Below are positions 8,525-62,405 of a stretch of DNA of 64,000 nucleotides, in pieces. The stretch's first letter is position 1. Each line of letters starts with the position of its first letter. The position numbers and the translations under genes are program-made. The DNA is from Hypericibacter terrae. Lineage in GTDB: Bacteria; Pseudomonadota; Alphaproteobacteria; Dongiales; Dongiaceae. Under the pieces are notes generated by a model that was not told the origin of the DNA, ran no database searches, and was given only the letters and a program-made list of their open reading frames with translations. The DNA is taken from assembly GCF_008728855.1 (NCBI RefSeq), contig NZ_CP042906.1:1984001-2048000 (forward strand), written 5' to 3'.

Positions 8525-10057
8525 TTACTCCAATCCCTTCTTGCCGATCTCTTCCTTCCGCCGGCTCACATAGGCCTGCAGCGCCTCGCGGCGGTCCGGA
8601 GCCAAAGGCGGCGGCTGGTAGCTTGCCAGCAGCGACTTCCAGATCTTGAGTGCGCGCTGGGTGGCGTCGAGGCCGCCGGCCTCGCGCCAATTCTCGTAGC
8701 TGCGCCAGTCGGAGAGGAGCGGCTGATAGAAGGCCGTTTCGAACCTCTCCATCGTATGGGCCGCGCCGAAGAAATGGCCGCCTACACCCACCTCGACCTG
8801 CGCGGAGAAGGCGATCTGGTCCTCGTCCACGACCACGGGCCGCAGGAACTCGCCCATCATCTGCAGCATCTCGGCGTCGAGCACCATCTTTTCGAAAGAA
8901 GCGCAGAGACCGCCCTCCATCCAGCCGGCGGCGTGATGGATGAGATTGGCGCCGCCCATGATCGCCGACCAGATCGACATCTGGCTCTCATAGGCCGCCT
9001 GCGCGTCGACCGTGTTGGAGGCGTTCACGTTCGAGGTGCGGTAGGGCAGGTTGTAGCGCCGCGCCATCTGGCCGCCGGCCAGGACCGCGCGCGCATATTC
9101 GGGCGTGCCGAAGGCGGGCGCGCCCGATTTCATATCGACATTCGAGGTGAAGCCCCCATAGAGCACGGGCGCGCCGGCCTGTACCATCTGGTGGAAGGCG
9201 ATGCCGCCCAGGGCCTCGGCGTTCTGCTGCACCAGGGCGCCTGCGAAGGTGACCGGGCTCATGGCGCCCTGGAGCGTGAAGGGCGTCACGATCGCAGGCT
9301 GGCGCGAGCGGGCGAGCTGCATCAGGCCCGCGGCCATTTCCTTGTCCACCCGGCGCGGCGAGTTGATGTTCACCACCGACATGATGCCGGGCTCGGCCGC
9401 CAGCGCGTCGGGCTCCTGCCCGCGTGCGATCGCCACCATCGCGACGGCATCGGCCAGCCGGGTCCGCCCGATGGCGCGGCCGAAGAAGGGCCGATCGGTC
9501 AGGGTGAGGAAGGCGAAGAGCGTGTCGAGATGGCGCGAATCCGCCGGCAAATCCATTGCCTCGACCGGCGTGCCGCCACAGCAATGGAGCACGTTCAGCG
9601 ACTGCTCGAGGCGGATCAGGTCGCACTGGTCCTGATAGGTGCCGGGACGCCGGCCCCGTTCCAGGTCGGAGCAGTTGGGCGGGCCGCCGACACCGCAGAA
9701 CATGATCTCGCCCTCGCCGACGCCGACGCGCCGTTCTGGGTTCCAGCTATAAATCTCGGCTTTGGACGGGGCGAGCCCAACGAAATGCTCCACCACCTCG
9801 CGCGGATACCGGACCATGCCGCTGTCGAAATCCACCTTGCAGCCGTTGCGTTCCAGGATTTCCAGCGCCTCGCGGTTCTGGAACTCCATGCCCAGGTCCC
9901 AGAGCAGCCGCAGGCTCGCGGCATGGATCCGCTCGATCTGGTCCTGATCGAGGATCTCGACGGGGCGCATGCGATTGACGATCCGCCGCCAGGAGAGCTG
10001 GTGCGGATGGCCCGTGCGCCGCTCGCGCATGCGCCGGTCGCGTCCGGATTCGGTCAC
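8525..10057 (-). CDS. Trimethylamine methyltransferase family (MttB superfamily), no pyrrolysine
   Basis: A 510-residue TIM-barrel methyltransferase of the MttB superfamily, with characteristic segments such as CGGTPVEAMDLPADSRHLD, LQGAMSPVTFAGALVQQNAEAL and IMGGANLIHHAAGWMEGGL. The frame has no internal amber codon, so it belongs to the pyrrolysine-free branch. Characterised members of that branch demethylate quaternary amines such as glycine betaine, proline betaine or carnitine onto a corrinoid protein. No corrinoid protein or RamA-like activator gene was seen in the window. The GTG start at 10057 follows AAAGGA, 14 bases after the upstream oxidase gene, so the two are cotranscribed. The substrate is probably an N-methylated amino acid or amine. 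Confidence 0.87.
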   Translation of the reverse strand: MTESGRDRRMRERRTGHPHQLSWRRIVNRMRPVEILDQDQIERIHAASLRLLWDLGMEFQNREALEILERNGCKVDFDSGMVRYPREVVEHFVGLAPSKAEIYSWNPERRVGVGEGEIMFCGVGGPPNCSDLERGRRPGTYQDQCDLIRLEQSLNVLHCCGGTPVEAMDLPADSRHLDTLFAFLTLTDRPFFGRAIGRTRLADAVAMVAIARGQEPDALAAEPGIMSVVNINSPRRVDKEMAAGLMQLARSRQPAIVTPFTLQGAMSPVTFAGALVQQNAEALGGIAFHQMVQAGAPVLYGGFTSNVDMKSGAPAFGTPEYARAVLAGGQMARRYNLPYRTSNVNASNTVDAQAAYESQMSIWSAIMGGANLIHHAAGWMEGGLCASFEKMVLDAEMLQMMGEFLRPVVVDEDQIAFSAQVEVGVGGHFFGAAHTMERFETAFYQPLLSDWRSYENWREAGGLDATQRALKIWKSLLASYQPPPLAPDRREALQAYVSRRKEEIGKKGLE

Positions 10058-10071
10058 GCGGGTTTATCCTT

Positions 10072-14012: not shown

Positions 14013-15029
14013 TCAGATCTCCGGAATATTCTCGCGGAAGATCGCCTGGATGCGCACGGGGACCGCGCGCTGGCTGTCGTCGTTGCGGGCGGCGCGGATG
14101 AGGCGGTCGACCGCCTCGCGTGCCTCGACCCGGGGGTTCTGATCGATCACCGCATCCATGATGCCGGAGAGGAGGAAGCGGCGGGTATATTCGGTCAGCT
14201 CATGGCCGATGAACACGACCTGGCGCGCGCGCCCCGATTCCTCGAGCGCCTGAGCGATGCCGCGATTGCCGGCGCCGATATTGTAGATGCCGCCGAGATC
14301 CGTATAGGTGCGCAGCAGGGTCCGCGCCTCCTGATAGGCGCGCTGGGAATCGTCGCGGATCTCGCGCAACTCGACGATGGTGAGGGCCGGGAAGGCCTCG
14401 GCCAGCATATGACGAAAGCCCATCTCGCGCTCTTCATGGCCGCGATAGCTGAGCGACCCCGCAAACAGCGCGACCTTGCCGCGGCCTGCCCCCATGAAGC
14501 GTCCGAGCAGATGGCCGGCGAGGCGGCCCGCGGCGCGATTGTCGACGCCGACATAGCCGACGCGCGGCACGTTCGAGATGTCCGAGACCAGCGTCAGGAC
14601 CGGCACGCCCTCGACCGACAGATTGCGGATCGCCTCGCGCACGGTCGGATGATCGAGCGCGATGACGCCGACGCCATGGGTCTGGCCGCGGATCGCGTGC
14701 AGACGCGCCGCCAGCGCATCGGGATTGAAGCCCTCGATCAGATGGACGCGGATATGCGCATCCTTCTGTCGTTGCGCCGCCATCTCCTCGAGATGGCCGG
14801 CCAGCATCGTCATGAAGGTGTTGGAGCCGCCGGGCAGGACGAAGTCGAGCTCGATCTCGCTCTGCGGGTCGAGCAGGGTGCCGCCTTCCAGATAGCCCAG
14901 CCGTTCCGCGGCCGTGAGCACGCGGTCGCGGGTGCGCAACTTCACCCCCTCGCGCTTGTTCAGCACGCGGTCGACCGTCGCCGTGGAGACGCCGGCTTCG
15001 CGCGCGATATCGGCAATCGTGGTTCGCAT
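14013..15029 (-). CDS. LacI family transcriptional regulator
   Basis: A 338-residue repressor. The N-terminal LacI helix-turn-helix TIADIAREAGVSTATVDRVLN (residues 4-24) is followed by hinge residues and a periplasmic-binding-like effector domain (GVGVIALDHPTVREAI; VGYVGVDNRAAGRLAGHLL), typical of regulators that sense free sugars. It is divergent from the 12-gene sugar operon starting at 15510 and very probably controls it. Both promoters in the shared gap carry the same CATCA-N5-CATCA motif next to a TTGACA, which suggests autoregulation. The inducer is presumably the transported sugar or its first metabolite. Confidence 0.93.
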   Translation of the reverse strand: MRTTIADIAREAGVSTATVDRVLNKREGVKLRTRDRVLTAAERLGYLEGGTLLDPQSEIELDFVLPGGSNTFMTMLAGHLEEMAAQRQKDAHIRVHLIEGFNPDALAARLHAIRGQTHGVGVIALDHPTVREAIRNLSVEGVPVLTLVSDISNVPRVGYVGVDNRAAGRLAGHLLGRFMGAGRGKVALFAGSLSYRGHEEREMGFRHMLAEAFPALTIVELREIRDDSQRAYQEARTLLRTYTDLGGIYNIGAGNRGIAQALEESGRARQVVFIGHELTEYTRRFLLSGIMDAVIDQNPRVEAREAVDRLIRAARNDDSQRAVPVRIQAIFRENIPEI

Positions 15030-15509: not shown

Positions 15510-17135
15510 ATGGCCGTGAGTGCCAAGACACCCGGACTGCGTTCATCGCTGAGCCGTCGCCGCGTTCTGAAGGCGGCGGGTTCGACGGCTGCCATTACGG
15601 CAGCGGTTGGGATCGCGCCTCGTTTCCTCACCATCCGCTCCGCGCATGCCGATACGGGCCTGGCGAGTGGGATGGTTGGCGGGCCGACCGGATTTCCGGG
15701 CGCCGAGCGCTACCAATATGGTCCCGACACGCCCGAGGCTCGCGCGATCGAAGCCCTCAAGGCGATGGTCGGCGCCGGCAAGGCGCCGAAGAAGCTCAAC
15801 ATGATGCTGTCCGACGGATCGGTCGGCCAGCTCACCAAGGCGTTCCCGGACGGGGCGCCCGCGGTGAAGGACCTGTTCGAGAAGGAAACCGGCATCGCGC
15901 TCGATATCGTCGGCGTTCCGTCCGGTCAGGAATTCACCAAGACGATGCAGGACATCTCGACCAAGGGCGGGTCCTTCGACGTCTATGCGACGGAGTGGAA
16001 CCGGCTGGGCGATCTGGCCGAGACCAATGGCCTCGTCAAGATGGACGAGTTCGTCGAGAAATATCGCCCGCAATGGAACGAGCCGGGCCGCGGCTATGTC
16101 GGCGGCAGGCAGGGCGTGGCGCTGCTCAACGAATATCGCGGTCATACCTACGGCGTGGCGCTCGACGGCGACTTCCAATGCTGGGTCTACCGCAAGGACC
16201 TGTTCGAGAGCGCCGACGAGCAGTCGGCCTTCAAGTCCAAATATGGCTATGACCTGGCCTTCCCGACCACCTGGAAGCAGATGGACGACGTGGCGACCTT
16301 CTTCCACCGTCCGGACAAGGGCCTGTTCGGCTGCACCGATCTGCGCAACCAGGGCTGGGGCTACACCAACTGGTATCAGCGCTTCTGCTCGACCGCCTCG
16401 CCCAACCAGTATCTCTTCAAGGATGACGGGACGCCGCTGATCAACTCGGAGCACGGCATCCTGGCGACCCAGGAATATGTCGACAGCCTGAAATACCATT
16501 CGCCCGACGCGATCTCGTGGGGCTGGCCGGAGCAGTATGGCAACATGGCGGCCGGCGGTGCCGCCATGACCTGCGCCTTCTCCAACATGCCGAAGTTCCT
16601 CGACAACCCCGGCAACGAGGGTTCGAAGGTGACGGGCAAGCTCGCCTCCTCGAAGCCGCCGGGACGCGAGATCGACGGCAAGATCGTCAGCCGCTCGGTG
16701 CTGTGGCTCAACATGACGGCTTCGATCTCGGCCCAGGGCAAGCATGCGGAGGTCTGCTACCTGCTGCTGCAATGGCTGGGCTCGAGCCGGATCTACAGCT
16801 GGATGACCGCCAACCCGGCCGGTTATTTCGATCCGTTCCAGCTCGCCAATTTCTCGGACCCGCTGGTGCAGGAGACCTATCACGCCTACCACGTGAAGAC
16901 GATCCAGGAGACGATCGCCCGCGCGGTGCCGACGATCAACTATCCGGGTGCGACCGCCTATCACAATGCGCTCGACGAGAATCTCGTGGCCGCTCTCACC
17001 AAGTCGAAGACGCCGGAGCAGGCGATGAACGACACGGAGAAGGAGTGGAAGAAGATCACGCGGCGCATCGGCGAGGAAAAGATCGTCGAGGCGATCAAGA
17101 CCAACAAGGCCGCCTGGCCCACCATCCTGGACTGA
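15510..17135 (+). CDS. Sugar ABC transporter substrate-binding protein
   Basis: A 541-residue extracellular solute-binding protein of family 1. A Tat signal (SRRRVLKAAGSTAAITAAVGI, about residues 15-35) directs it to the periplasm, ending near SAHA-DTG. The mature part is longer than a maltose-type binding protein and resembles the large glycerol- or polyol-binding proteins of rhizobial importers. GGGAGGACTGATCC precedes the ATG. It is the first gene of the operon and is followed by a strong hairpin terminator, which should make it the most abundant component. The ligand is unknown, but the downstream enzymes point to a sugar, sugar acid or polyol. Confidence 0.9.
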   Translation: MAVSAKTPGLRSSLSRRRVLKAAGSTAAITAAVGIAPRFLTIRSAHADTGLASGMVGGPTGFPGAERYQYGPDTPEARAIEALKAMVGAGKAPKKLNMMLSDGSVGQLTKAFPDGAPAVKDLFEKETGIALDIVGVPSGQEFTKTMQDISTKGGSFDVYATEWNRLGDLAETNGLVKMDEFVEKYRPQWNEPGRGYVGGRQGVALLNEYRGHTYGVALDGDFQCWVYRKDLFESADEQSAFKSKYGYDLAFPTTWKQMDDVATFFHRPDKGLFGCTDLRNQGWGYTNWYQRFCSTASPNQYLFKDDGTPLINSEHGILATQEYVDSLKYHSPDAISWGWPEQYGNMAAGGAAMTCAFSNMPKFLDNPGNEGSKVTGKLASSKPPGREIDGKIVSRSVLWLNMTASISAQGKHAEVCYLLLQWLGSSRIYSWMTANPAGYFDPFQLANFSDPLVQETYHAYHVKTIQETIARAVPTINYPGATAYHNALDENLVAALTKSKTPEQAMNDTEKEWKKITRRIGEEKIVEAIKTNKAAWPTILD

Positions 17136-17218: not shown

Positions 17219-18079
17219 ATGAAGCGTTCCATCGCCTTCGAGCTCGTTCGCTACGCGCTGATCCTCGCCGCGGTCGCGATCACGCTCGTGCCGATCGTCT
17301 GGATGGCCACCATGGCCTTCAAGCCGATTCCCGAATGGACCGCGAGCGGTGCCGACCTTACGTGGTGGCCGCGCAACCCCACCCTCGACAATTTCCGCTT
17401 CGTGTTCGGCGAAGAGACGTCTGAATTGATCGTGGCGCTGGACAAGAGCGCGATTCGCCCGATCGCCGCCTCCCTGCTGGCCTCGATCTTCGGGACCCTG
17501 ATCGCCATGATCTGCGGCACGGCTGCGGCCTATGGCCTGTCGCGCTTCAATGTCGGCGGCAACCTGCCGCTGGCCCTGATCCAGCTGCGCCTGTTCCCGC
17601 CGATGGCGGTGATGATCCCCATCATGATCATGTGGAGTTTCCTCGGCCTGGTGGACACCTGGTGGGGGCTGGCGCTGGTCTATGGCATCGTCACGCTGCC
17701 CTTCGCCTTCTGGCTGATGAAGACCTTCTTCGACGAGATGCCGCGCGAGATCGAGGAGGCGGCGCTGGTCGAAGGCTGCTCGCGCTTCCGCGTCTTCATG
17801 CGCATCACCCTGCCGGTGATGCGGGCACCCCTGGCGAGCTCGGCGCTCTTCGTCTTCATCCTCAACTGGTCCGACTATCTGATCGGCCTGCTGCTCACCA
17901 CCAAGGAGTGGGTGACGGTGCCGGTCTACATGGCCAGCCTGTCTTCTTCCATGACCGGGCAGCTCTATGGCGCCAAGGCGGCGCTGGGGCTGATCGCGGC
18001 CGTGCCGCCGGTCGTGTTGGGCATCGCGATCCAGAAATATCTGGTTCGCGGCCTGACCTTCGGCGCGCTCAAGCAGTAG
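17219..18079 (+). CDS. Carbohydrate ABC transporter permease, MalG type
   Basis: A 286-residue inner-membrane permease with six predicted helices, beginning with [20 protein letters not shown]. The EAA coupling loop [22 protein letters not shown] lies at about residues 178-199 and should contact one ATPase. It is typical of CUT1 importers, where MalF- and MalG-type permeases pair. The ribosome site is weak, which would fit lower expression than the binding protein. The MalG-type gene precedes the MalF-type gene here, the reverse of the maltose operon. Confidence 0.92.
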
Positions 18080-18097: not shown

Positions 18098-19030
18098 ATG
18101 ACCGCCACGACCTCGACCCCTGCGAGCCTGCCGCGGCAACTGACCCTGGACGAGGAGGGAAAGCGCCTCGGCTTCCGCATGACGCTGCCGACGCAGATCC
18201 TGATCCTCTTCATCGCCGTCTTCCCGCTGCTGATGCAGATCTATATCAGCCTGACGGACTGGTCGCCGCTCGACGGCGTGAGCTGGATCTCGGCCTATGA
18301 GAGCTGGAACAATTTCGCCAACTTCGTCGATCTGATCCAGGACGACCGGCTCTGGGCGGCGCTGCGGCGCACTTTCCTGGTCATGGCGGTCTGCGTCCCG
18401 GCGCAGTTCTTCCTGGCGCTGGGGTTGGCGGTGCTGTTCGTCGACAATTTCATCGGCAAGCGGCTGTTCTACTCGATCCTGCTGACGCCGATGATGGTGG
18501 TGCCTTCGGTCGCCGGCTACATGTTCTTCATGCTGTTCCAATCGGGCGGGCCCATCAACGGCATCATCTCCGGCGTCACCGGCATGGATTTCGCGGTCGC
18601 CTGGCTCTCCGACCCGCATCTGGCGCTGGTCGCGGTAATGATCGCCGATGTCTGGCAATGGACGCCGCTGATGTTCCTGATCCTGCTGGCGGGCCTGATC
18701 GGCGTGCCGGAGGACCAGCTGCGCGCGGCGACCCTGCTGGGCGCCTCCTGGTGGCAGCGCTTCACCACCATCATGCTACCGCGCATCAAGATCGTCATCG
18801 TGATCGCGCTGGCGATCCGGGTGGTCGAGATTTTCAAGATCTTCGATACCCTCTATGTGATGACGGGCGGCGGTCCCGGCGTCGCGACCGAGACCATCTC
18901 GGTCTATATCTACAAGATCACGACCCAGGACCTGACCTGGGCCTATGTCGCGGCCATCGCGCTCTTCATCCTGATCACGCTGTCGGTGCTGGCCAACATG
19001 GCGCTGCGCCGGATGGGACGGAGAAGCTGA
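18098..19030 (+). CDS. Carbohydrate ABC transporter permease, MalF type
   Basis: A 310-residue permease with a cytoplasmic N-terminus, six predicted helices (first ILILFIAVFPLLMQIYISL) and the EAA-type loop EDQLRAATLLGASWWQRFTTI near residues 206-226. This is the second half of the CUT1 channel. GGGAACGC lies upstream of the ATG. It ends 1 base before the first ATPase gene, so translation is coupled. Confidence 0.92.
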   Translation: MTATTSTPASLPRQLTLDEEGKRLGFRMTLPTQILILFIAVFPLLMQIYISLTDWSPLDGVSWISAYESWNNFANFVDLIQDDRLWAALRRTFLVMAVCVPAQFFLALGLAVLFVDNFIGKRLFYSILLTPMMVVPSVAGYMFFMLFQSGGPINGIISGVTGMDFAVAWLSDPHLALVAVMIADVWQWTPLMFLILLAGLIGVPEDQLRAATLLGASWWQRFTTIMLPRIKIVIVIALAIRVVEIFKIFDTLYVMTGGGPGVATETISVYIYKITTQDLTWAYVAAIALFILITLSVLANMALRRMGRRS

Positions 19031-19031
19031 C

Positions 19032-20129
19032 ATGGCCGCCATCCATCTCGAGAACCTGGTCAAGCATTTCGGCGGTTTCTCGGCCATCAAGCAGATGGAC
19101 CTCGAGATCCGCGACAAGGAGTTCATGGCGCTGCTGGGCCCCTCGGGCTGCGGCAAATCCACCACCATGAACATCATTGCCGGCATGGAGAGCCCGAGCT
19201 CGGGCCGCGTGCTGTTCGACGGCGTCGATGTCTCGCAGACGCCGATGGGCAAACGCGGCGTCGGCTTCGTGTTCCAGAACTACGCCATCTTCACCCATAT
19301 GACGGTCCGCCAGAACCTGGCCTATGGCTTGAAGATGCGCCGCCTGCCCAAGGCCGAGATCGACAAGGCCGTCGCCAAAGTCGCGCAGCTCTTGCAGCTC
19401 GAGCCCTATCTCGACCGGCCCGCGGCCAAGCTCTCGGTCAATATCCTGCAGCGCCTGGCGATCGGCCGGTCGGCGGCCGTCAATCCCTCGATCTTTCTGC
19501 TGGACGAACCACTGTCGAATGTCGATGCGGCCTTCCGGGCGGTCATGCGTACCGAGCTCAAGCATCTGCAGCGCGAGTTCGGTCAGACCATGGTCTATGT
19601 GACCCACGACCAGCTCGAGGCCATGACCATGGCCGACCGGATCGCGGTCATGGATCACGGCCTGCTGCAGCAGGTCGGCAGCCCGCTCGACGTCTATAAC
19701 AACCCCTGCAACACCTTCGTCGCACGCTTCCTCGGCGCCCCCGGCATGAATCTCATCGCCGGCGCGGTGGTCGAGGAGAATGGGAAGCTGTCGGTCGATT
19801 GCGGGCCGGCCGGCCGTTCCGGGACGCTGGCGGCGCCCCTGGCGGCCGGCGTTCGCAAGGCCGGGGCGAAGGATGTCCATTTCGGCATTCGGCCCGAGGA
19901 TCTCGAGTTCGCCGCGGAGGGCGGGGCGGGCCTCGTCATGCAGGTCGTGTTCGTCGAGCGGATCGGGCCGCGCGCCATCCTGCATCTGACGGCCGGGGAC
20001 CGGAACGCGAAGATCGTGGCCGAGAACCTGGCCGCGGTGAAGACGGGCGAGCGGCTGCGCCTCAGCCCACGGGCGGGCCGGATCCGGCTCTTCGATGCCG
20101 GCAGCGGCCGCGCGATCCTGGAGGCCTGA
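19032..20129 (+). CDS. Sugar ABC transporter ATP-binding protein with a degenerate signature motif
   Basis: A 365-residue MalK/UgpC-like ATPase. Walker A GPSGCGKST (36-44), Q-loop Q82, Walker B FLLDEP with D158-E159 and the H-loop YVTHD are normal, and a regulatory TOBE-like domain follows from about residue 240. The ABC signature that should read LSGGQ is LSVNI (134-138), so the two glycines that contact ATP across the dimer are missing. In a homodimer this would disable both sites. The next gene encodes a second ATPase with the complementary defect, so the two probably form a heterodimer with one working site. Confidence 0.92.
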   Translation: MAAIHLENLVKHFGGFSAIKQMDLEIRDKEFMALLGPSGCGKSTTMNIIAGMESPSSGRVLFDGVDVSQTPMGKRGVGFVFQNYAIFTHMTVRQNLAYGLKMRRLPKAEIDKAVAKVAQLLQLEPYLDRPAAKLSVNILQRLAIGRSAAVNPSIFLLDEPLSNVDAAFRAVMRTELKHLQREFGQTMVYVTHDQLEAMTMADRIAVMDHGLLQQVGSPLDVYNNPCNTFVARFLGAPGMNLIAGAVVEENGKLSVDCGPAGRSGTLAAPLAAGVRKAGAKDVHFGIRPEDLEFAAEGGAGLVMQVVFVERIGPRAILHLTAGDRNAKIVAENLAAVKTGERLRLSPRAGRIRLFDAGSGRAILEA

Positions 20130-20134
20130 CCCGC

Positions 20135-21235
20135 ATGGCCGAGATCGAATTCGTCAACGTCTCGAAAAGCTTCGGCAAGACCGTCGCGGTCAAGGATCTG
20201 TCCTTCCGCGTCGCCGACAACGAGTTCTTCTGCTTTTTCGGGCCGCCCTCCTCGGGCAAGACCACGATCCTGCGCCTGATCCTGGGGTTGGAGACGCCCG
20301 ACCAGGGCGAGGTCAGAATCGGCGGCCGGAACGTGACGCTCCTGCCGCCGGCCGCGCGCAATGTCGCGATGGTGTTCCAGAATCTCGCCCTCTTTCCGCA
20401 TATGACGGCGCGCGACAATATCCGTTTCCCGCTGGTTGAACGCAAAGTGGTGCCGGCGGTGGCCGAGGCGCGCCTCGCCGCCGTCGCCGAGAAGCTCCAT
20501 ATCGGCCATATCCTGCACAAGCTGCCAGCCCATCTCTCGGGCGGCGAGCGCCAGCGCGTGGCCATCGCGCGTGCCCTCGTGGTCGAGCCCAACGCCTATC
20601 TGATGGACGATCCGATTTCGGCGCTCGATGCGCGGCTGCGCGAGGAGACCCGCGTCGAGCTCAAGCGCATCCAGACCGAGCTCGGGCGGACCCTCGTCTA
20701 TGTGACGCATGACCAGGAGGAGGCGATGTCGGTCGCCGACCGCATGGCCGTGCTGGAGCATGGCGAGATCCGCCAGCTCGGCAGCCCGCGCGACATCTAT
20801 ATGACGCCGGCCAGCCGCTATGTGGCCCGGCTGGTGGGGTCCCCGCCGATCAATCTCATTCCCGGCCGCATGGACCAGGCGCAGTCGGTCTTTCGGGCCG
20901 ACGGCGGCGAGCTCAAGGTGCCGCTGGCCAACCGGTCGCAGGCGGGGGCAGGGGGGCTCGAGCTGGGCGTCCGTCCCGAAGATGTCCGCATCGTCTCGCC
21001 CGATCGCGCCGATGCCGCCCATGCCGAGGTCTATGAGCTGCAGCCGCTCGGCGGCTACACGATCGTCGACGTGAAATATGGCGGCCTCATCCTGCGCGCC
21101 CTGGTCCAGGGCCAGACCGCCTTGAAGCTCGGCGAGCGCATCGGCCTGCTGCTCGACCCGGCGCGGATCCATCTGTTCTCGAGCGAGGACGGTCGCGCCT
21201 TCGCCCACGGCACCTCCGCTACCGCCGCCGCATAA
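20135..21235 (+). CDS. Sugar ABC transporter ATP-binding protein with Walker B Glu-to-Asp change
   Basis: A 366-residue second ATPase of the same family, 5 bases after the first. Walker A GPPSSGKTT (36-44) and the signature LSGGE (134-138) are intact, but the catalytic glutamate after Walker B is aspartate (YLMDDP, D158-D159). A C-terminal TOBE-like domain is present (LGVRPEDVRIV). Paired with its neighbour it would contribute the intact signature to the neighbour's good Walker site and form a second, weak site of its own. The ATG at 20135 was chosen over the upstream out-of-context frame because it follows the previous stop. Rhizobial glycerol importers also carry two distinct ATPases. Confidence 0.92.
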   Translation: MAEIEFVNVSKSFGKTVAVKDLSFRVADNEFFCFFGPPSSGKTTILRLILGLETPDQGEVRIGGRNVTLLPPAARNVAMVFQNLALFPHMTARDNIRFPLVERKVVPAVAEARLAAVAEKLHIGHILHKLPAHLSGGERQRVAIARALVVEPNAYLMDDPISALDARLREETRVELKRIQTELGRTLVYVTHDQEEAMSVADRMAVLEHGEIRQLGSPRDIYMTPASRYVARLVGSPPINLIPGRMDQAQSVFRADGGELKVPLANRSQAGAGGLELGVRPEDVRIVSPDRADAAHAEVYELQPLGGYTIVDVKYGGLILRALVQGQTALKLGERIGLLLDPARIHLFSSEDGRAFAHGTSATAAA

Positions 21236-21252: not shown

Positions 21253-22350
21253 ATGACGGACGCACTCGGTTTTTCCCCGGACCCGGAGATCCGCTGCCGC
21301 GATTTCAAGATCGGCTGCATCGGCGCCGGCTTCATCATGGCCGACGTCCACCTGGCCTCCTATCACGAGGCGGGATTCCCGGTGGTGGCCATCGCCTCGC
21401 GCACCAAGGCGAAGGCGGCCGATGTCGCGAAGCGCTGGAACATCGGCACCGTCCATGACACGCCGGAGACGCTGATCGAGGATCCGCGGGTGGAGATCCT
21501 CGACATCGCCTATCCGCCCGACCAGCAGCCGGACCTGATCCGGCACGCCCTCAAGCAGAAGCATATCAAGGCGATCCTGGCGCAGAAGCCGCTCGCCATG
21601 ACCTTCGAGGAAGCCAAGCGGATCGCGGCCGAATGCAAGGCCGCGGGCAAGGTGCTCTCGGTCAACCAGAACATGCGCTTCGACCAGTCGATGCGCGTCT
21701 TGAAGCAGATCCTCGACAAGGGCTCGCTCGGGACGCCGGTGCTGGCCACGATCGAGATGCGGGCGATCCCGCATTGGCAACCTTTCCTGCATGAATATGA
21801 CCGCCTCACCCTGCTCAACATGTCGATCCATCACCTCGACGTGCTGCGCTTCCTGTTCGGCGATCCCAGCGACATCTATACGGCGGTCCGTTCCGATCCG
21901 CGCACGACCTTTCCCCATCGCGACGGTATCACCGTCTCCACCATGACCTTCCCTTCGGGCCTGATGGCGGTCTCGATGGAGGATGTGTGGAGCGGTCCGC
22001 GCGAGGAGGGCTACGAGTCCGACATCTATATCAAGTGGCGCGTCGAAGGCACGGAAGGTGTGGCCCAGGGCACCATCGGCTGGCCCGACTATCCGAAAGG
22101 CTCGCCCTCGACCCTGCGCTACTGCTCGAAGAAGGCGACCGGCGGCAAGTGGGTGCAGCCCACCTGGTCGACCATGTGGTTCCCCAATGCCTTCAAGGGC
22201 GTGATGGAGCAGCTGCAATATGCGCTCAAGACCAATACCCGGCCGCTGCTCGAAGGCCAGGACAATGTGAAGACCATGGCCCTGATCGAAGCCGGCTATC
22301 GCTCGATGGCCGAACGGCGCGCCGTGCGCCTCGACGAATTCCACATCTGA
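21253..22350 (+). CDS. Gfo/Idh/MocA family oxidoreductase
   Basis: A 365-residue NAD(P)-dependent sugar oxidoreductase. The Rossmann motif IGCIGAGFIMADVHLASY starts near residue 19. The AQKPLAM segment supplies the EKP-like lysine, and the C-terminal domain has the usual NMSIHHLDVLRFLFGD with a His-x3-His-like active-site region. These enzymes oxidise ring or side-chain hydroxyls of sugars and inositols. GGAGAGAGGAAACCC precedes the ATG. In this operon it may act with the TIM-barrel isomerase that follows. Substrate unknown. Confidence 0.9.
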   Translation: MTDALGFSPDPEIRCRDFKIGCIGAGFIMADVHLASYHEAGFPVVAIASRTKAKAADVAKRWNIGTVHDTPETLIEDPRVEILDIAYPPDQQPDLIRHALKQKHIKAILAQKPLAMTFEEAKRIAAECKAAGKVLSVNQNMRFDQSMRVLKQILDKGSLGTPVLATIEMRAIPHWQPFLHEYDRLTLLNMSIHHLDVLRFLFGDPSDIYTAVRSDPRTTFPHRDGITVSTMTFPSGLMAVSMEDVWSGPREEGYESDIYIKWRVEGTEGVAQGTIGWPDYPKGSPSTLRYCSKKATGGKWVQPTWSTMWFPNAFKGVMEQLQYALKTNTRPLLEGQDNVKTMALIEAGYRSMAERRAVRLDEFHI

Positions 22351-22379: not shown

Positions 22380-23288
22380 ATGATCCAGGTCGGTATTTTC
22401 TCAGGATACTTCCCCTACACGCTGAAAGAGCAGGCTCAGAAGATCCGGGCGCACGGCTTCAACACGGTGCAGCTCGACCTGGCGTTCAAGGACATCGACT
22501 TCTCGACGCCCGAATCGATCACCAAGGAAAAGGCCAAGACCGTCCGCGAGACCTTCCGCGATCACGATCTGCCGATCTGCTGCATCTCGGGCTACACCAA
22601 CATCACTCACCCCAATCCGGCCGAGCGCAAGAAGCGCCTAGACTATCTCAAGGCGATCATCCGCAACGCGCGCAACTTCGGCTCGCCCTACGTCATCTCG
22701 GAAACCGGCACTTTCAATACGGAATCCGACTGGGTCGCCCATCCGAAGAACAAGACCGAGGAAGGCTTCCAGGAATGCAAGGCGGTGATCAAGGAGCTGT
22801 CGCAGATCGCCTATGACCATGGCGCGCAGTTCCTGCTCGAGACCTATGTGAACAATGTGGTGGGCTCGGTCGAAGAGACGGTCCGCCTGTTCGCCGAGGT
22901 CGACCATCCGGGCCTAGGGCTGCTGATGGATCCGACGAACTATTTCGAATCCCACAATATCGAGAAGATGGACGGGGTGCTGAAGCAGATCTTCGACACG
23001 CTGTCGGACAAGATCCGCATCTCCCATGCCAAGGACGTGAAGCGCTCGGGCGGCGACAAATCGGAGAAGCATGCCGATATCGACGCCTCGGAATCCCACA
23101 CCTTCCGCGGCGTCGGCGAGATCGAGCTGCCGGCGCCGGGCCTGGGCTCGCTGAACTACGACTACTATCTGAAGCGCCTCAGCGAGAAGCACCCGAACAT
23201 TCCGATCATCATCGAGCATCTCGACGAGACGGATGTGCCGCGGGCGAAGAAGTTCATCGACGGCCGCCTGCGCGCCAACGGCGTCTGA
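22380..23288 (+). CDS. Sugar phosphate isomerase/epimerase family TIM-barrel protein
   Basis: A 302-residue xylose-isomerase-like TIM barrel (AP endonuclease 2 fold). The metal-binding glutamates and histidine lie in strands such as PYVISETGTFN, QFLLETYVNNV, LLMDPTNYFE, ISHAKDV and IIIEHLDE. This pattern is shared by IolE/IolI-like and hydroxypyruvate- or 3-keto-sugar-processing enzymes. GGAGGAGGATAACCC is a very good ribosome site. Together with the preceding Gfo/Idh/MocA enzyme it suggests keto-sugar chemistry. Confidence 0.9.
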   Translation: MIQVGIFSGYFPYTLKEQAQKIRAHGFNTVQLDLAFKDIDFSTPESITKEKAKTVRETFRDHDLPICCISGYTNITHPNPAERKKRLDYLKAIIRNARNFGSPYVISETGTFNTESDWVAHPKNKTEEGFQECKAVIKELSQIAYDHGAQFLLETYVNNVVGSVEETVRLFAEVDHPGLGLLMDPTNYFESHNIEKMDGVLKQIFDTLSDKIRISHAKDVKRSGGDKSEKHADIDASESHTFRGVGEIELPAPGLGSLNYDYYLKRLSEKHPNIPIIIEHLDETDVPRAKKFIDGRLRANGV

Positions 23289-23382: not shown

Positions 23383-24582
23383 ATGGTGCAGCTATTCGGC
23401 CGCTCCTATACCCGCCGCGAGGTGGCGGCCCATGCCGGCATGCTGTCGCAGTTCGCCGGCGTGCGGCTGATGACATTGGGCGACGGTGTCGAGCGCGACA
23501 TCCGCATGCTCGAGTTCCGCACCGGCTCGGGCCTGCGCTTCACCGTGCTGCTGGACCGCGCCTTCGACGTGGCCGACTGCGAATATAAGGGCCAGGCCAT
23601 CGGCTGGAACTCGCCGAGCGGCTTCCGCCATCCGGGCCTGCATGAATATGAGGGCGAGGGCGGGCTCGCCTGGCTGCGTTCGTTCTCGGGCCTGGTCGTG
23701 ACCTGCGGACTCGACCACATCCTCTTCATGCATGAGGACAAGTCCGACCATTACCACTATGTCCATCGCAAGTCGGTCAACAGCTCGATCCATGGCCGTA
23801 TCTCAACCACCCCCGGCAAGCTGATCGCTTATGGCGAGCAGTGGGACGGCGACGAATGCACCTTGTTCTGCGAGGGGGTGATCCAGCAGTCGGCGGTGTT
23901 CGGCGAGGATCTCCATCTGATCCGCCGCATCGAGGCGAAGCTGGGCGCCAGCGAGTTCACGATCCAGGACCGGGTCGTCAATCACGGCTTCTACCGCACG
24001 CCGCATATGTTCTGTTACCACATCAATATCGGCCATCCGGTGCTGTCGGAGGGCTCGCGCTATCTGGCGCCGGTCGCCCATACGGTCTGGGCCGCCCATG
24101 CCGAGGACTATAAGAAGCAGGAGGTCGGCTATCGCCGCCTGCCGGGACCGCGCCACAACTTCCATGAGCAGGTCTGGCAGCATGCGATGGCGGCCGACGC
24201 CGCGGGGCAGGTTCCCGTCGCCATCGTCAATGACGCGCTGGGGTTGGGATTCCTGGTCGAGACCAACAAGAACGAGTTCCCCTGCCAGTTCCAGTGGCAG
24301 AATTTCCAGGAAGGGCAGTATGCGATCGGCATCGAGCCCTCGACCAACCATGTCTATGGCAAGTCCTTCGCGCAGGAGCGCGGCGAGCTGATCTGGCTCG
24401 AGCATGGCGAGGAGAAGCGCTACAAGACCCGCTTTGCCGTTCTCGACGGCGCCCAGGCCCTTGCGGCCGCGGAGAAACGCATCACGGCCATCGCCAGGCA
24501 GCCCGACAGCGACTATCCGGATCCCAGCAACCGCTGGGATCCGATCGCCGGCCGTGGGAAGTCAGCGGGAGTTCCGGCATGA
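23383..24582 (+). CDS. DUF4432 family protein (aldose 1-epimerase-like)
   Basis: A 399-residue protein of the DUF4432 family, related to galactose mutarotases. Visible family features include LLDRAFDVADCEYKGQAIGW, HILFMHEDKSDHYHY, FCYHINIGHPVLSEG and AIGIEPSTNHVYGK, with many histidines lining a probable sugar pocket. The ATG at 23383 follows CGAGGTCAG; the longer frame starts inside the previous gene. Its stop overlaps the next start as ATGA. It would act on the anomeric form of the imported sugar or of a keto-sugar intermediate (inference). Confidence 0.85.
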   Translation: MVQLFGRSYTRREVAAHAGMLSQFAGVRLMTLGDGVERDIRMLEFRTGSGLRFTVLLDRAFDVADCEYKGQAIGWNSPSGFRHPGLHEYEGEGGLAWLRSFSGLVVTCGLDHILFMHEDKSDHYHYVHRKSVNSSIHGRISTTPGKLIAYGEQWDGDECTLFCEGVIQQSAVFGEDLHLIRRIEAKLGASEFTIQDRVVNHGFYRTPHMFCYHINIGHPVLSEGSRYLAPVAHTVWAAHAEDYKKQEVGYRRLPGPRHNFHEQVWQHAMAADAAGQVPVAIVNDALGLGFLVETNKNEFPCQFQWQNFQEGQYAIGIEPSTNHVYGKSFAQERGELIWLEHGEEKRYKTRFAVLDGAQALAAAEKRITAIARQPDSDYPDPSNRWDPIAGRGKSAGVPA

Positions 24583-25331
24583 CGCTCAAGGGCAAGACGG
24601 TTCTTTATACGGGGGCTGCGGGCGGCCTCGGCCATGACACCTCGATGGCTATGGCGGCCGCGGGTGCCCGCGTCATCGCGATCGACAGCGATCCGGTCAA
24701 GGCCGAGCGGCTCGCCAACTCGGCCAAGCATGCGGGACCGGGCTCGATTGTCCTGGAAGCCATCGATCTGAGCGATCTCAAGGGGCTTGCACGCCGTCTG
24801 GCGGAGATCGCGAAGCGTGAAGGCGGCTTCGATATCGTCATCAACAATGCCGCGATCTATCCTTCCAAGCCGTTCGAGCAGTACACGATCGAAGAGCATC
24901 AGGCCGTACAGCGCGTCAATGTCGATGCCGGCATCGTCTGCGTGCAGACGGCGCTGCCCGACATGAAGCACAAGGGCTGGGGCCGGATCGTCAATATTTC
25001 GAGCGTGACCTTCTATGGCGGTTGGGCGCTGCTCTCGCCCTATGTCGCCTCCAAGGCCGCGCTGGTCGGGCTGACCCGCGCCTGGGCGCGTGAGTTCGGG
25101 CCGCATGGCATCACGGTGAACGCCATCGCGCCGGGCGCCTTCCCGACCGATGCCGAGAAGATCCATCCCGATCCCGAGGGCTATACCCGCTTCGTGCTGG
25201 ATCACCAGGCGCTCAAGCGGCGCGGCTCGGCGGCCGACATCGCCAATGCGATCCTGTTCCTCATCTCCGATCAATCCAGTTTCATCACCGGCCAGACGCT
25301 CAATGTCGATGGCGGCTGGGTGATGCATTAA
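24579..25331 (+). CDS. SDR family oxidoreductase
   Basis: A 250-residue classical SDR. TGAAGGLG (11-18) binds the cofactor, NNAA occurs in FDIVINNAAIY, the catalytic serine in VNISSV, and Y-x3-K in SPYVASKAALVG. IAIDSD after strand two suggests NAD. It starts inside the DUF4432 gene stop (ATGA), so it is translationally coupled. Expected role: oxidation of a sugar to a lactone, or of a hydroxy acid, inside this operon. It differs from the SDR at 2186 and belongs to this pathway. Confidence 0.9.
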   Translation: MTLKGKTVLYTGAAGGLGHDTSMAMAAAGARVIAIDSDPVKAERLANSAKHAGPGSIVLEAIDLSDLKGLARRLAEIAKREGGFDIVINNAAIYPSKPFEQYTIEEHQAVQRVNVDAGIVCVQTALPDMKHKGWGRIVNISSVTFYGGWALLSPYVASKAALVGLTRAWAREFGPHGITVNAIAPGAFPTDAEKIHPDPEGYTRFVLDHQALKRRGSAADIANAILFLISDQSSFITGQTLNVDGGWVMH

Positions 25332-57337: not shown

Positions 57338-57652
57338 TTGGGCCGGCTTCACGCCACTGCCTGAAAAGGACAGCATTGCTGTTATTGTTTGAGCGTCTGC
57401 ATCGGTCTGTTTGGCAGGCCGATCGCTTATTCGTGGGCTGAATTGGCGCCTCCGGACCAGCGAGCTGAAATGATTCGATCCGATCGGCGAGGGTGGCGAC
57501 GCAACCGGGGGAAACCTCTTCAATCTCCATGTGACAGGGGAATTAAATCTTGACCCAGGAAGTCTTTGCCCCATTGTCTTGATCTAGGTCAGGGGCCTGC
57601 TTCTCGAGCTTTGGTATCGGTTATCGAGCAGCAGCAGGGGATGGAGAGCAAC
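57338..57652. other. 315-base gap upstream of the arc operon
   Basis: No gene is seen. A short hairpin ACAGC-ATT-GCTGT followed by TATTGTTT near 57372-57392 may end the porin transcript weakly. The FNR-type site at 57579-57592 and a GGAGAG ribosome site before the ATG at 57653 belong to arcD. Confidence 0.5.
57579..57592. promoter_or_regulatory. FNR/ANR-type site upstream of arcD
   Basis: TTGAT-CTAG-GTCAG is a near-palindrome of the TTGAT-N4-ATCAA/GTCAA class, 60 bases before the arcD start. The arginine deiminase operon of pseudomonads is controlled by the FNR homologue ANR through such a site. Confidence 0.65.
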
Positions 57653-59131
57653 ATGGCCGCGACAACCGATACTGTGGCCGTTCCGACGGCAGCACCGGCC
57701 GACCACAAGCTAACGCTGATACCGCTGATCGCCTTGGTGGTCGGCTCGATGATCGGGGGAGGGGTCTTCAACCTGCCCTCGGATATGTCGAGGGGTGCGT
57801 CGCCCGGCGCGATCGTCATCGGATGGCTGGTGACGGGCCTCGGCATGCTGATGCTGGCCTTCGTCTATCAGGATCTCGCCGTCCGCAAGCCGGCGCTCAA
57901 TGCCGGTCCCTACGCCTATGCCAAGGCCGGCTTCGGTCCCTTCATCGGATTCAACAGTGCCTGGGGATATTGGATCAGCGCGTTCCTCGGCAACGTGGCC
58001 TATGCGGCCGCGATCTTCTCGGCGCTCTCCTATTTCCTTCCGATCTTCGGCGGCGGCAGCAACCTGCCGTCGATCGTCGGTGCATCGGTCGGCGTCTGGG
58101 CGATCCATTTCCTTGTCCTCAAGGGGATCCGGCAGGCCGCCTTCATCAACGTGGTCACGACGATCTCGAAGCTGGTGCCGATCTTCCTGTTCCTGCTGAT
58201 CGCGATCATCGCGTTCCATTGGGACAAGTTTACGTTCAACTTCTGGGGCCAGCCGGATGCGGCCGGGCAGGGTGGCCTGGGCTCGCTCTTGTCCCAGGTG
58301 AAGAGCACGATGCTGGTGACCGTCTGGGTCTTCATCGGAATCGAAGGTGCCAGCGTCTATTCCACGCGCGCGGCCAAGCGTTCCGATGTGGGGCGGGCCA
58401 CGCTCATCGGCTTCATCGGCTGCCTCGGGCTCTATGCGCTGGTGTCGTTGTTGGCGACGGGCATCATGAGCCAGACCGACCTCGCCGGTCTCAAGGTCCC
58501 GTCGATGGCCGGTGTGTTCGAATCGCTGGTCGGGCCCTGGGGCGCGGCCCTGATCAATCTCGGCCTGATCGTCTCGGTCGGAGGTGCCTATCTGGCATGG
58601 ACCCTGCTCTGCGCCGAGATCCCCTATGTCTGCGGCCGGGACGGGACCTTTCCGAAATGGTTCGCGGTGGAGAACCGCAACGGATCGCCGGCGAATTCGC
58701 TCTGGGTCACCAACGGATTGATCCAGCTCTTCCTGGTGCTGAGCTATTTCTCCCAGAGCGCCTATCAGTTCTTCTACTTCATCGCCTCGGTCGCCATCCT
58801 GCCGCCCTACGTGTTTTCGGGAGCCTATGCGCTGAAGCTCGCGATTACGGGCGAGGGCTACCAGGCCGGGGACAAGGCGCGCGGGCGCCAGCTTCTTGTC
58901 GGCCTGATCGCCACGATCTATGGCGTCTGGCTCGTCTATGCCGCGGGGCTGCAGTATCTGCTGATGTGCGCGATCCTGTTCGCACCCGGCATCCTCGTCT
59001 ATGCCAAGGCTCGCAAGGAGCAGGGCGGACGGATCTTCACCGGTGTCGAGATGATCATCGCCATCGCCCTTGTCGCAGTCGCGCTTTGGGCCGGTTGGCA
59101 AATGTGGATCGGCGAGCTCAGCCCTCTCTGA
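57653..59131 (+). CDS. arcD: Arginine/ornithine antiporter (APC family)
   Basis: A 492-residue transporter with 12-13 predicted helices. [55 protein letters not shown] and [21 protein letters not shown] match the ArcD/YdgI antiporter family. It imports arginine and exports ornithine without energy cost. The ATG at 57653 has GGAGAG at proper spacing; earlier in-frame starts would place the coding region over the FNR-type site. First gene of arcDABC. Confidence 0.92.
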
Positions 59132-59186
59132 AACGCGGCCTATGCCCGCGCCACCGGCGGCAGGCCCCCATCCAAGGAAGATCTCA

Positions 59187-60416
59187 ATGAGCGAACTAGG
59201 CGTCCATTCCGAAGTCGGCAAGCTTCGCACTGTGATGGTCTGCAGGCCAGGCCTCGCGCATCAGCGGCTCACGCCGGCCAATTGTCACGACCTGCTCTAT
59301 GACGATGTGATCTGGGTCCATGAGGCGCAGAAGGACCATTTCGATTTCGTGCTGAAGATGAAAGAGCGCGGCATCGAGGTGCTCGAGCTGCACGACATGC
59401 TGGCCGAAACCCTGGAGACGAATGAAGGCCGGAATTTCATCCTCGACCGCCGTCTTTCGGCGAATGCGGTCGGTATTCATACCGGCCGGGCCTTGCGGCC
59501 CTGGCTGAATACGATGGAGTCGAAGAAGCTGGCCGAGCATCTGATCGGCGGCATCGCCATCAAGGAACTGCCCGACATCGAGGGCAAGAGCGCGCTGCTC
59601 GAGACGCAGGGGGGGATGGACTTCGTCATCCCGCCGATTCCCAACACGCTGTTCCAGCGCGACCCTTCCTGCTGGATCTATAAGGGCGTCACCGTCAACC
59701 CGATGTTCTGGCCGGCCCGCCAGCCGGAAACCCTGCTCCAGCGCGCGATCTACAAGTTCCATCCTCGATTCAAGGGCGCGGATTTCAAGATCTGGTGGGG
59801 CGATTCGGATGAGAACTTCTCCGGCGCCTCGATGGAGGGCGGCGATGTGATGCCCATCGGCAAGGGCATCGTTCTGATCGGCATGGGCGAGCGCACGACG
59901 CGGCAGGCCGTTTCGCAGGTCTGCCAGAGCCTCTTCAAGAGCGAAGCGGCGACGCGGGTGATCGGCTGCGTCATGCCGAAGAGCCGGGCGGCGATGCATC
60001 TCGATACGGTCTTCACCTTCTGCGATCGCGACCTGGTGACGGTGTTCCGTGACGTGGTCGACCAGATCCGGTGCTACAGCGCCTATCCGACCGGAAAGAG
60101 CGGCGATTTCGAGTTCAGGAAGGAGGAGAAGCCTCTCCTGGATGTCGTTCGCGACGCGCTGGGATTGAACAAGCTGCGCGTGGTCCAGACCGGCGGCGAT
60201 GCCTACGAGGCGGAGCGCGAACAGTGGGACGACGGCAACAATGTCGTGGCGCTCGAGCCCGGCGTCGTCGTCGCCTACGATCGCAACATCTATACGAATA
60301 CCCTGCTGCGCAAGGCCGGGGTCGAAGTCATCACGATCCGCGGCTCGGAGCTCGGCCGCGGCCGGGGCGGCGGGCATTGCATGACCTGTCCGATCTCCCG
60401 CGATCCGGCCTACTGA
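59187..60416 (+). CDS. arcA: Arginine deiminase
   Basis: A 409-residue enzyme that hydrolyses arginine to citrulline and ammonia. Catalytic features are visible: FQRDPSCWI (aspartate), [11 protein letters not shown] (glutamate), MHLDTVFTF (histidine) and the nucleophile C398 in GGGHCMTC. It closely follows the Pseudomonas ArcA, with a shorter loop before [18 protein letters not shown] precedes the ATG at 59187. Ammonia release also buffers acid. Confidence 0.97.
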
Positions 60417-60458
60417 CCGGCCATCCCCGCATCAAAATCGAAATCGAGGAGCAACCCG

Positions 60459-61463
60459 ATGAGCTTCAATCTCCGCAATCGCTCGCTGCTGACCGTCCAG
60501 GACTATACGCCGCGGGAGTTTCGCTATCTTCTGGATCTGTCTCGCGACCTGAAGCGCGCGAAATACGCCCGGACCGAGCAGAAGCATCTCGACGGCAAGG
60601 AGATCTGCCTCATCTTCGAGAAGACCTCGACCCGGACACGCTGCGCCTTCGAGGTGGCCTGCCACGACCAGGGGGCGCATGTCACCTATCTGGATCCGGC
60701 GGGATCGCAGATCGGCCATAAGGAGTCGTTCAAGGACACCGCCCGCGTCCTCGGCCGCATGTTCGACGCGATCGAATATCGCGGCTCGTCGCAGAAGGGC
60801 GTCGAGCAGCTCGCGAAATATGCCGGCGTGCCGGTTTATAACGGCCTCACCGACGAATATCACCCGACCCAGATGCTGGCCGACGTGATGACCATGCGCG
60901 AGCACAGCGATAAGCCGCTGCATCAGATCAAATACGCCTATGTCGGCGATACCCGGTCCAATATGGGCCATTCGCTCATGATCGTCGGCTGCCTCATGGG
61001 CATGGACGTCCGCATCGCCGGCCCGAAGAAACTCTGGCCCTCGGACGACTACCGGAAGATCGCCGAGACCCTGGCCGAGGCCTCGGGAGCGAAATTGACC
61101 ATCACCGACGACCCGAAAAAGGCCGTCAAAGGGGTCGACTTCATCCACACCGACGTTTGGGTCTCGATGGGCGAGCCGAAGGAGGTCTGGAAGGAACGGA
61201 TCAAGCTCCTGATGCCCTTCCAGGTGAACGACAAGCTGATCAAGGCCAGCGGCAATCCGCAGGTGAAGTTCATGCATTGCCTCCCGGCCTTCCACGACAC
61301 CGAGACCAAGGTCGGCAAGGAAATGGCCGATACCTACGGAATCAAGGACGGACTCGAGGTCACCAATGCGGTGTTCGAGTCAGACTTGAATGTCGCGTTC
61401 GAGCAGGCGGAGAATCGCCTCCATACCATCAAGGCGATCCTCGTCGCGACCCTCGGAGATTGA
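60459..61463 (+). CDS. arcB: Ornithine carbamoyltransferase, catabolic
   Basis: A 334-residue enzyme that phosphorolyses citrulline to ornithine and carbamoyl phosphate. The carbamoyl-phosphate site [11 protein letters not shown], the HPTQMLAD motif and the ornithine-site cysteine in HCLPAFHD are all present. Length and location between arcA and arcC show the catabolic form. GAGGAGCAACCC precedes the ATG. Confidence 0.97.
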
Positions 61464-61466
61464 GCC

Positions 61467-62405
61467 ATGCGCGTGGTCATTGCGCTGGGCGGGAATGCGC
61501 TCTTGAAGCGCGGCGAGCCGATGACGGCCGAGACGCAGCGGCACAATATCCGCATCGCCGCGGAGGCCATGGCGCCCGTTGCGAAGGAGCACGAGCTGGT
61601 CATCAGCCATGGCAACGGGCCGCAGGTGGGATTGCTCGCTCTTCAGGGTGCCGCCTACAAGCCGGACGAGGCTTATCCGCTCGACGTGCTGGGTGCTGAA
61701 ACCGAGGGCATGATCGGCTACATGATCGAGCAGGAGATGGGCAATCTGCTGCCGTTCGAGGTGCCGTTCGCGACGCTGCTGACCATGGTGGAGGTCGACC
61801 CGGAGGATCCTGGTTTCAAGAACCCGACCAAGTTCGTGGGACCGGTCTATGAAAAGCCGGACGCCGACCGCATCGCCAAGGAGAAGGGCTGGGTGTTCAA
61901 GGCGGACGGGCCGAAATGGCGGCGCGTCGTTCCGTCGCCTCAGCCCAAGCGGATCTTTGAGATCCGGCCGATCAAGTGGTTGATCGAGCACAATACCGTC
62001 GTCATCTGCGCAGGCGGCGGGGGCATTCCCACCATGTATGAGCGCGGCGCCAGCCGGAAGCTCGTCGGGGTTGAGGCGGTCATCGATAAGGATTTATGCT
62101 CGGAGCTGTTGGCGCGAGAGCTCGAGGCGGATCTCTTCATCATGGCGACCGACGCACCCGGCGTTTACATCGATTTCGGCAAGCCCGAAGCCAAGGTGAT
62201 CCGTCAGTCGACGCCGGCCGCGATCGGGAAGTACAGTTTTCCGGCCGGATCGATGGGCCCCAAGGTGGACGCGGCCTGCCATTTCGCGACGGCGACCGGG
62301 AAGACCGCGGCGATCGGCGCCCTGGCCGACATCCCGGCGATCGTCCAGGGCAAAAAAGGAACGCAGATTTCGAAGCGCTTCGACGGCATCACGTTTCATT
62401 CGTGA
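61467..62405 (+). CDS. arcC: Carbamate kinase
   Basis: A 312-residue kinase that transfers phosphate from carbamoyl phosphate to [17 protein letters not shown] at the N-terminus, [18 protein letters not shown] and [16 protein letters not shown] are family signatures. It begins 3 bases after arcB. Last enzyme of the pathway; gives one ATP per arginine. Confidence 0.97.

Follow-up and report, generated by a model that had tools for sequence, protein, structure and literature searches.

Two adjacent genes of a CUT1 sugar importer operon in Hypericibacter terrae encode MalK-type ATPases with complementary defects: the first (ATPase1) has a ruined ABC signature, LSVNI in place of LSGGQ, and the second (ATPase2) has an aspartate in place of the catalytic glutamate. 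Both changes were found in all 76 of the close operon homologues in which the two genes could be read, and in a survey of tandem ATPase pairs all scored defects of the degenerate pairs were confined to one and the same composite ATP site. We consider it quite probable that the two proteins form an obligate heterodimer in which one site hydrolyses ATP and the other is degenerate, and that this asymmetric engine drives a MalFGK2-like importer.

A CUT1 operon with two ATPase genes

The window, which denotes the whole stretch of 64,000 nucleotides that was analysed, contains an operon that encodes a CUT1 importer (Table 1). The gene set of the MalK/UgpC type is complete, with an SBP_bac_1 binding protein, two BPD_transp_1 permeases and ATPases that combine ABC_tran with OB_MalK/TOBE_2, and the five genes are contiguous, with 5 bases between the two ATPase genes. 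The operon departs from the CUT1 type in one respect: instead of the single ATPase gene of a MalFGK2-like homodimer there are two distinct genes, the products of which were 39% identical when aligned. Both ATPases scored below the curated cut-off of 432 for the NCBIfam UgpC subfamily NF008653 (364 and 340 bits), and the closest PDB structures to both were MalK-type chains. For the binding protein the sole solved relative at an E value up to 0.001 was 5iai, a distant one (E 3e-7).

Table 1. Features of the window, with positions counted from its first nucleotide
Feature	Position	Strand	Basis
MttB-type methyltransferase, presumably (open frame resembling one)	8528-10063	-	
LacI-type regulator, divergent	14013..15029	-	Domain match
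Extracellular sugar-binding protein, SBP_bac_1	15510..17135	+	Pfam SBP_bac_1, E 5e-25
Permease, BPD_transp_1, MalG/UgpE type	17219..18079	+	Best NCBIfam GlcU, MalG, UgpE, all sub-cut-off
Permease, BPD_transp_1, MalF/UgpA type	18098..19030	+	Best NCBIfam GlcT, UgpA, all sub-cut-off
ATPase1 (NBD A), 365 aa	19032..20129	+	ABC_tran, OB_MalK, TOBE_2
ATPase1 signature LSVNI replacing LSGGQ, residues 134-138	19431..19445	+	Sequence; LSVNI in 76/76 homologues
ATPase1 Walker B D158-E159, catalytic Glu present	19503..19508	+	Sequence
ATPase2 (NBD B), 366 aa	20135..21235	+	ABC_tran, OB_MalK, TOBE_2
ATPase2 Walker A GPPSSGKTT, Lys and Thr retained	20240..20266	+	Sequence
ATPase2 signature LSGGE, residues 134-138, intact	20534..20548	+	Sequence
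ATPase2 residue 159, Asp (GAT) replacing catalytic Glu	20609..20611	+	Sequence; Asp in 76/76 homologues
Gfo/Idh/MocA oxidoreductase, operon context	21253..22350	+	Domain match; gene order repeated in L204, L246
Xylose-isomerase-like TIM barrel, sugar epimerase, context	22380..23288	+	AP_endonuc_2; L204, L246 record annotation
DUF4432, aldose-1-epimerase family, context	23383..24582	+	Domain match; L204, L246 record annotation
Short-chain dehydrogenase (SDR), context	24579..25331	+	Domain match
Four consecutive genes whose starts we take to be like those of an amino-acid antiporter, arginine deiminase, ornithine carbamoyltransferase and carbamate kinase	57554-62402	+	

In ATPase1 the Walker A motif (GPSGCGKST), the Q-loop (Q82), the Walker B Glu and the switch His (H192) are all intact, the D-loop reads LSNVDA and the signature is ruined. 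In ATPase2 the signature is intact, Q82 and H192 are present, the D-loop reads ISALDA and Walker B ends in D158-D159; given that the Lys and Thr of its Walker A motif are retained, this protein is expected to bind ATP. The sequence-only reading of the window had described the two ATPases in these terms, LSVNI with an intact D158-E159 in one and an intact LSGGE with D159 in the other, and both the residues and their coordinates were confirmed.

The ATP site of an ABC protein is a composite of both nucleotide-binding domains (NBDs), in which the Walker elements of one face the signature of the other (PMC7756269, available text). Since each site combines motifs of both NBDs, a heterodimer of ATPase1 and ATPase2 would have one canonical and one defective site. 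Neither homodimer would have a canonical site, because a pair of ATPase1 molecules brings together two ruined signatures and a pair of ATPase2 molecules has two sites without Glu.

Conservation among homologues of the operon

Homologues were searched for with the binding protein only, so that the selection of loci was independent of the ATPase trait. From the 170 binding-protein relatives found, the best 80 were retained, and both ATPases were reached in 76 of these 80 loci, the contigs of the other four ending too early. All of the homologues containing both genes (76/76) combine an ATPase1 that has LSVNI and Glu with an ATPase2 that has Asp, including two (L029 and L034) in which the frame of the second ATPase is broken in the record and the Asp is still visible. 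Given that the pattern was identical in 76/76 homologues, it is neither chance nor sequencing error.

Codons were counted over 75 loci (L029 was left out), in which ATPase1 was 60-70% identical to the protein of the window. At each of the 18 counted motif positions at least two synonymous codons were in use and there was no amino-acid replacement at all; D159 of ATPase2, for instance, was encoded by 54 GAT and 21 GAC codons, and N137 of ATPase1 by 58 AAC and 17 AAT codons. Because the codons vary synonymously without replacement, we read the unusual residues of both ATPases as being under purifying selection.

The arrangement of the two adjacent genes also speaks for a heterodimer. In 20 of the operon homologues L021-L100 (including L025, L028, L030, L032 and L039) both ATPases lie in the same frame with just a TGA and a few codons between them, and ATPase genes split in this way are a natural near-fusion. 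When such an adjacent pair was folded as a single chain read through its own TGA, with the first of 19 homologous loci read through the TGA as input together with their alignment, the mean pLDDT was 63 and the pTM 0.34, and 237 of the 717 residues were under 50, a model too poor to support any claim.

Survey of tandem ATPase pairs

Tandem pairs were pooled from the operon homologues, from searches of the window's own genome, order, class and phylum, from stretches cut from these, from plasmid records and from glycerol operons, the last located through DUF2160 in 30 genomes. ATPase frames were dropped if they scored below 340 or if their alignment covered 250 residues or fewer, which removed broken or cut ones such as that of L029 and pieces at contig ends. 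The pool comprised 157 tandem pairs, 131 of them different (26 repeats were removed), and 98 different unpaired ATPases. The elements scored were Walker A (Gly and Gly-Lys-Ser/Thr), the Q-loop Gln, the second signature Gly, the Walker B Asp and Glu, the D-loop Asp and the switch His; for the signature only the second Gly was considered and weaker changes count as intact. Site 1 was defined as the Walker, Q and H elements of the signature-less partner A combined with the signature and D-loop of partner B, and site 2 as the opposite composite.

The second signature Gly was lost in one partner in 113 of the 131 different pairs. Site 1 was free of scored defects in all 113 degenerate pairs, that of the window included, and further defects were present in 103 of them, every one located in site 2. 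Four states of site 2 were found. Signature loss was the sole defect in 10 of the 113 pairs; it was combined with the Walker B Glu to Asp change in 80 pairs, all from the family of the window, with loss of the switch His in 17 pairs, all glycerol importers, and with changes of the Q-loop, the His and the D-loop Asp in six pairs of a third family. In 131/131 pairs the Walker A motif of the partner retained both Lys and Ser/Thr. The composite-site logic that had been proposed for the window pair alone holds and also generalises, in that all scored extra defects of the 113 pairs lie opposite the presumptive working site. Sampling was mostly within the window's own class and the queries came from these same families, and the 113 pairs are not independent for that reason.

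No scored defect at all was present in the 18 pairs in which the second signature Gly is still in place. These pairs (LSGGD, LAGGD or LSSGD with LSGGE) include weaker changes of the first ATPase signature, namely LAGGD and LSSGD. That every two-ATPase importer is degenerate is ruled out by these 18 of 131 different pairs. The unpaired ATPases, defined by having no partner within the stretch examined, were without scored defect in 96 of 98 cases, and the two exceptions (L034 and L250) do belong to pairs, the other member of which is broken or cut.

In the third family (L106, L201, L202, L242, L251 and L252) one ATPase has an LGASE-like signature and Glu for the D-loop Asp, and the other has Asp or Glu in the Q-loop and Pro for the switch His. 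Two extra genome searches for this family gave matches in 2/388 and 4/372 genomes, the 2 belonging to the window's own family. The stretch around a Rhodococcus match contains just one ATPase, which is intact, and the survey is otherwise one of Pseudomonadota. Locus L201 lies near a glutamine synthetase gene, and an alkene reductase gene is close to both L202 and L242.

The genome of the window itself has three two-ATPase importers, one with LSVNI and Asp, one with LNMSE and Glu, and one near-consensus pair with LAGGD and LSGGE (L108, C1:1819000-1834000). The near-consensus importer adjoins genes that we take to be those of dihydroxyacetone kinase subunits, which they resemble.

Comparison with the glycerol importers

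Rhizobial glycerol importers, which also have two ATPases, had been named in the sequence-only reading as a possible precedent. The importer examined is located on pRL9 between glpD and glpK (L239, RL_RS26255/RL_RS26260); GlpS (first) and GlpT (second) were assigned by the published order glpSTPQUV, both being recorded as "ABC transporter ATP-binding protein". The original paper on glpSTPQUV is reportedly that of Ding in 2012. GlpT has the signature LTADQ with Glu and His intact, and GlpS has LSGGQ, keeps Glu and has Thr at the position of the switch His. The same pattern was found in 17/17 different pairs, with signatures varying among LAADA, LTADE, LTADA, LSADA and LSPDN and with either Thr or Ser at the switch position.

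The precedent was therefore borne out as regards polarity. Like the window system, GlpSTPQUV is CUT1-like, has two adjacent ATPase genes and has all scored defects of the pair in one composite site. It differs in that the second defect affects the switch His of GlpS, where Glu is kept, whereas ATPase2 of the window keeps H192 and loses Glu, and in that the order of the signature-less and signature-intact ATPase genes is reversed. A small membrane protein, DUF2160, is present in L239, whereas the gaps between the transporter genes of the window (at most 83 bases) leave no room for one. A Cupriavidus importer with two ATPases and two permeases has been likened to glpSTPQUV, according to the accessible part of PMC7912956.

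Independence and order of the changes

For a tree of 96 ATPases the trait columns were left out. In this tree the signature-less proteins of the LSVNI/LSVNE, LNMSE and LGASE-like families, three in number, grouped in one clade (100/99) and GlpT was placed elsewhere. The changes required on the tree were two for signature loss, one for the Walker B Glu, two for the His, one for the Gln and one for the D-loop Asp. Given that the events on the tree are so few, the figure of 113/113 must not be taken as 113 independent tests. The tree suggests about five independent extra-defect events, all of them in site 2, and the chance of 5/5 falling there is about 0.02 (hand arithmetic, with the 13 remaining elements regarded as equally likely). 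The tree prefers two origins of signature loss, the loss in the glycerol importers then being independent of that in the window's clade, and a single origin is compatible with the data (p-AU 0.32).

More distant relatives of the window system (L101-L105, L180 and L203) have LSVNE in ATPase1 and retain Glu in ATPase2, and Glu is also kept in the second family, LNMSE, which includes L002 of the window's own genome. The Glu to Asp change was found only in the clade of the window and required one change on the tree. Because the LSVNE and LNMSE pairs have lost the signature and their partners retain Glu, the most likely order is that the signature was lost first and the Walker B Glu was replaced by Asp afterwards. 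Co-occurrence of the two changes, expected from the sequence-only reading, was found in 76/76 close homologues and failed in two groups, the LSVNE sister clade and the family with LNMSE (10 of the 113 pairs). Obligatory co-occurrence is ruled out by these two groups, which we read as an earlier stage of decay rather than as a refutation of the asymmetric heterodimer.

Two of the LSVNE sister importers (L110 and L112) sit among what we take to be other catabolic genes, including one for an epimerase-like dehydrogenase, and since their surroundings are of this kind the LSVNE-related family may span several substrates.

Proposed mechanism and alternative explanations

In the mechanism that we propose, ATPase1 and ATPase2 would make up one obligate heterodimer. 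Site 1, formed by the Walker A, Q-loop, Walker B Glu and switch His of ATPase1 and closed by the LSGGE and D-loop of ATPase2, would be canonical and hydrolyse ATP. Site 2, formed by Walker A and B of ATPase2 and closed by the LSVNI of ATPase1, would have neither the signature glycines nor the catalytic Glu. As the Walker A Lys and Ser/Thr are kept, it would be predicted to hold ATP with slow or no turnover and to act as a static or regulatory clamp, and hydrolysis of a single ATP per cycle would reset the transporter. Such a site would have evolved stepwise, through the signature and later the Walker B Glu, and the same composite site would have decayed in parallel through other residues in the glycerol importers (GlpS/GlpT) and in the third two-ATPase family.

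Both sites of the heterodimer could instead hydrolyse ATP, with Asp159 and the altered signature merely slowing site 2, so that the asymmetry would be kinetic. The Glu to Asp replacement is conservative and seems compatible with slow hydrolysis (PMC7756269, available text), and among the degenerate pairs there are 10 that lost the signature only and 17 more that keep Glu and lose the His. Loss of the second signature Gly in every degenerate pair, and the accumulation of His, Gln and D-loop defects in other families, speak against two active sites; because the Gly is always lost and further defects accumulate, site 2 is apparently not selected for catalysis. On balance we regard two hydrolysing sites as unlikely.

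It is far less probable still that the two proteins work as separate homodimers, or that the permeases draw their energy from some other MalK-type ATPase of the genome, with one of the two acting as a regulator. Shared ATPases do exist, such as MsmX, which powers several importers of Bacillus subtilis according to the accessible text of PMC11466899, and the window genome has many further MalK/UgpC-like ATPases. Both genes are however inside the transporter operon in all 76 homologues that reach them, and homodimers would leave the complementary defects across the two proteins unexplained. Neutral decay, in which a duplicated ATPase pair loses function without selection, is already disfavoured: it would fit with the different substitutions that the families show at the degenerate site, but LSVNI and Asp159 are invariant in the 75 scored loci while the codons vary, and site 1 has no scored defect in any of the 113 pairs. 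We find it hardly credible as an account of this operon, and the obligate heterodimer with one hydrolytic site is the explanation that we prefer.

Relation to known ABC transporters

In exporters with a degenerate site the NBDs are joined to the membrane domains, whereas in the window system the MalK-type ATPases are separate proteins that carry an OB/TOBE regulatory domain, and a binding protein is present. The likeness to these exporters (the ABCC family and CFTR; TM287/288, TmrAB and BmrCD) lies in one NBD with an altered signature, a partner with mostly Asp for Glu and one canonical site (PMC7756269, available text). The same text gives a matching hierarchy for human degenerate sites, stating that the signature is altered in all of them, with Glu to Asp as the second change, and that loss of Glu frequently goes with a change in the H-loop. 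Among importers, the fused two-NBD proteins RbsA and NupO of Bacillus subtilis also have one degenerate ATP site as judged from sequence; they differ in that each chain carries two NBDs and the second Walker A is without Lys (PMC11466899, accessible part), whereas the window has two genes and Lys is kept. In E. coli the importer ATPases DppD and DppF are separate proteins too, and each has a catalytic Glu according to the available passages of PMC12136057.

The window system shares its domain layout and operon type with MalFGK2. In that system a defect in one MalK subunit is enough to impair maltose transport severely. MalFGK2 differs from the window system in having a MalK homodimer and hence two like sites (PMC7756565, available text). 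Among the open-access matches listed, none described a degenerate site in a CUT1 importer. Our comparison supports degenerate-site asymmetry in CUT1 importers, reached through different residues in different families.

Significance

The origin of the pattern with one dead site in ABC proteins has been called enigmatic (PMC7756269, available text), and it has been studied mostly in exporters. The same composite decay is now found in soluble, separately encoded MalK-type ATPases of small bacterial importers, at several graded stages. It is possible, and we hold this with somewhat less than even confidence, that an ATP cycle with one engine arose repeatedly among MalK-type importers and by the route of the exporters, with the signature lost first and then the Walker B Glu or the switch His. 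The presence of three two-ATPase importers in one genome makes site-by-site mutagenesis, stoichiometry and reconstitution practical and allows a direct comparison with two-site maltose import. If MalK-type importers did evolve such a cycle repeatedly, type I import would need no more than one hydrolytic site, and the degenerate one would be a selected, permanently ATP-loaded clamp and no relic.
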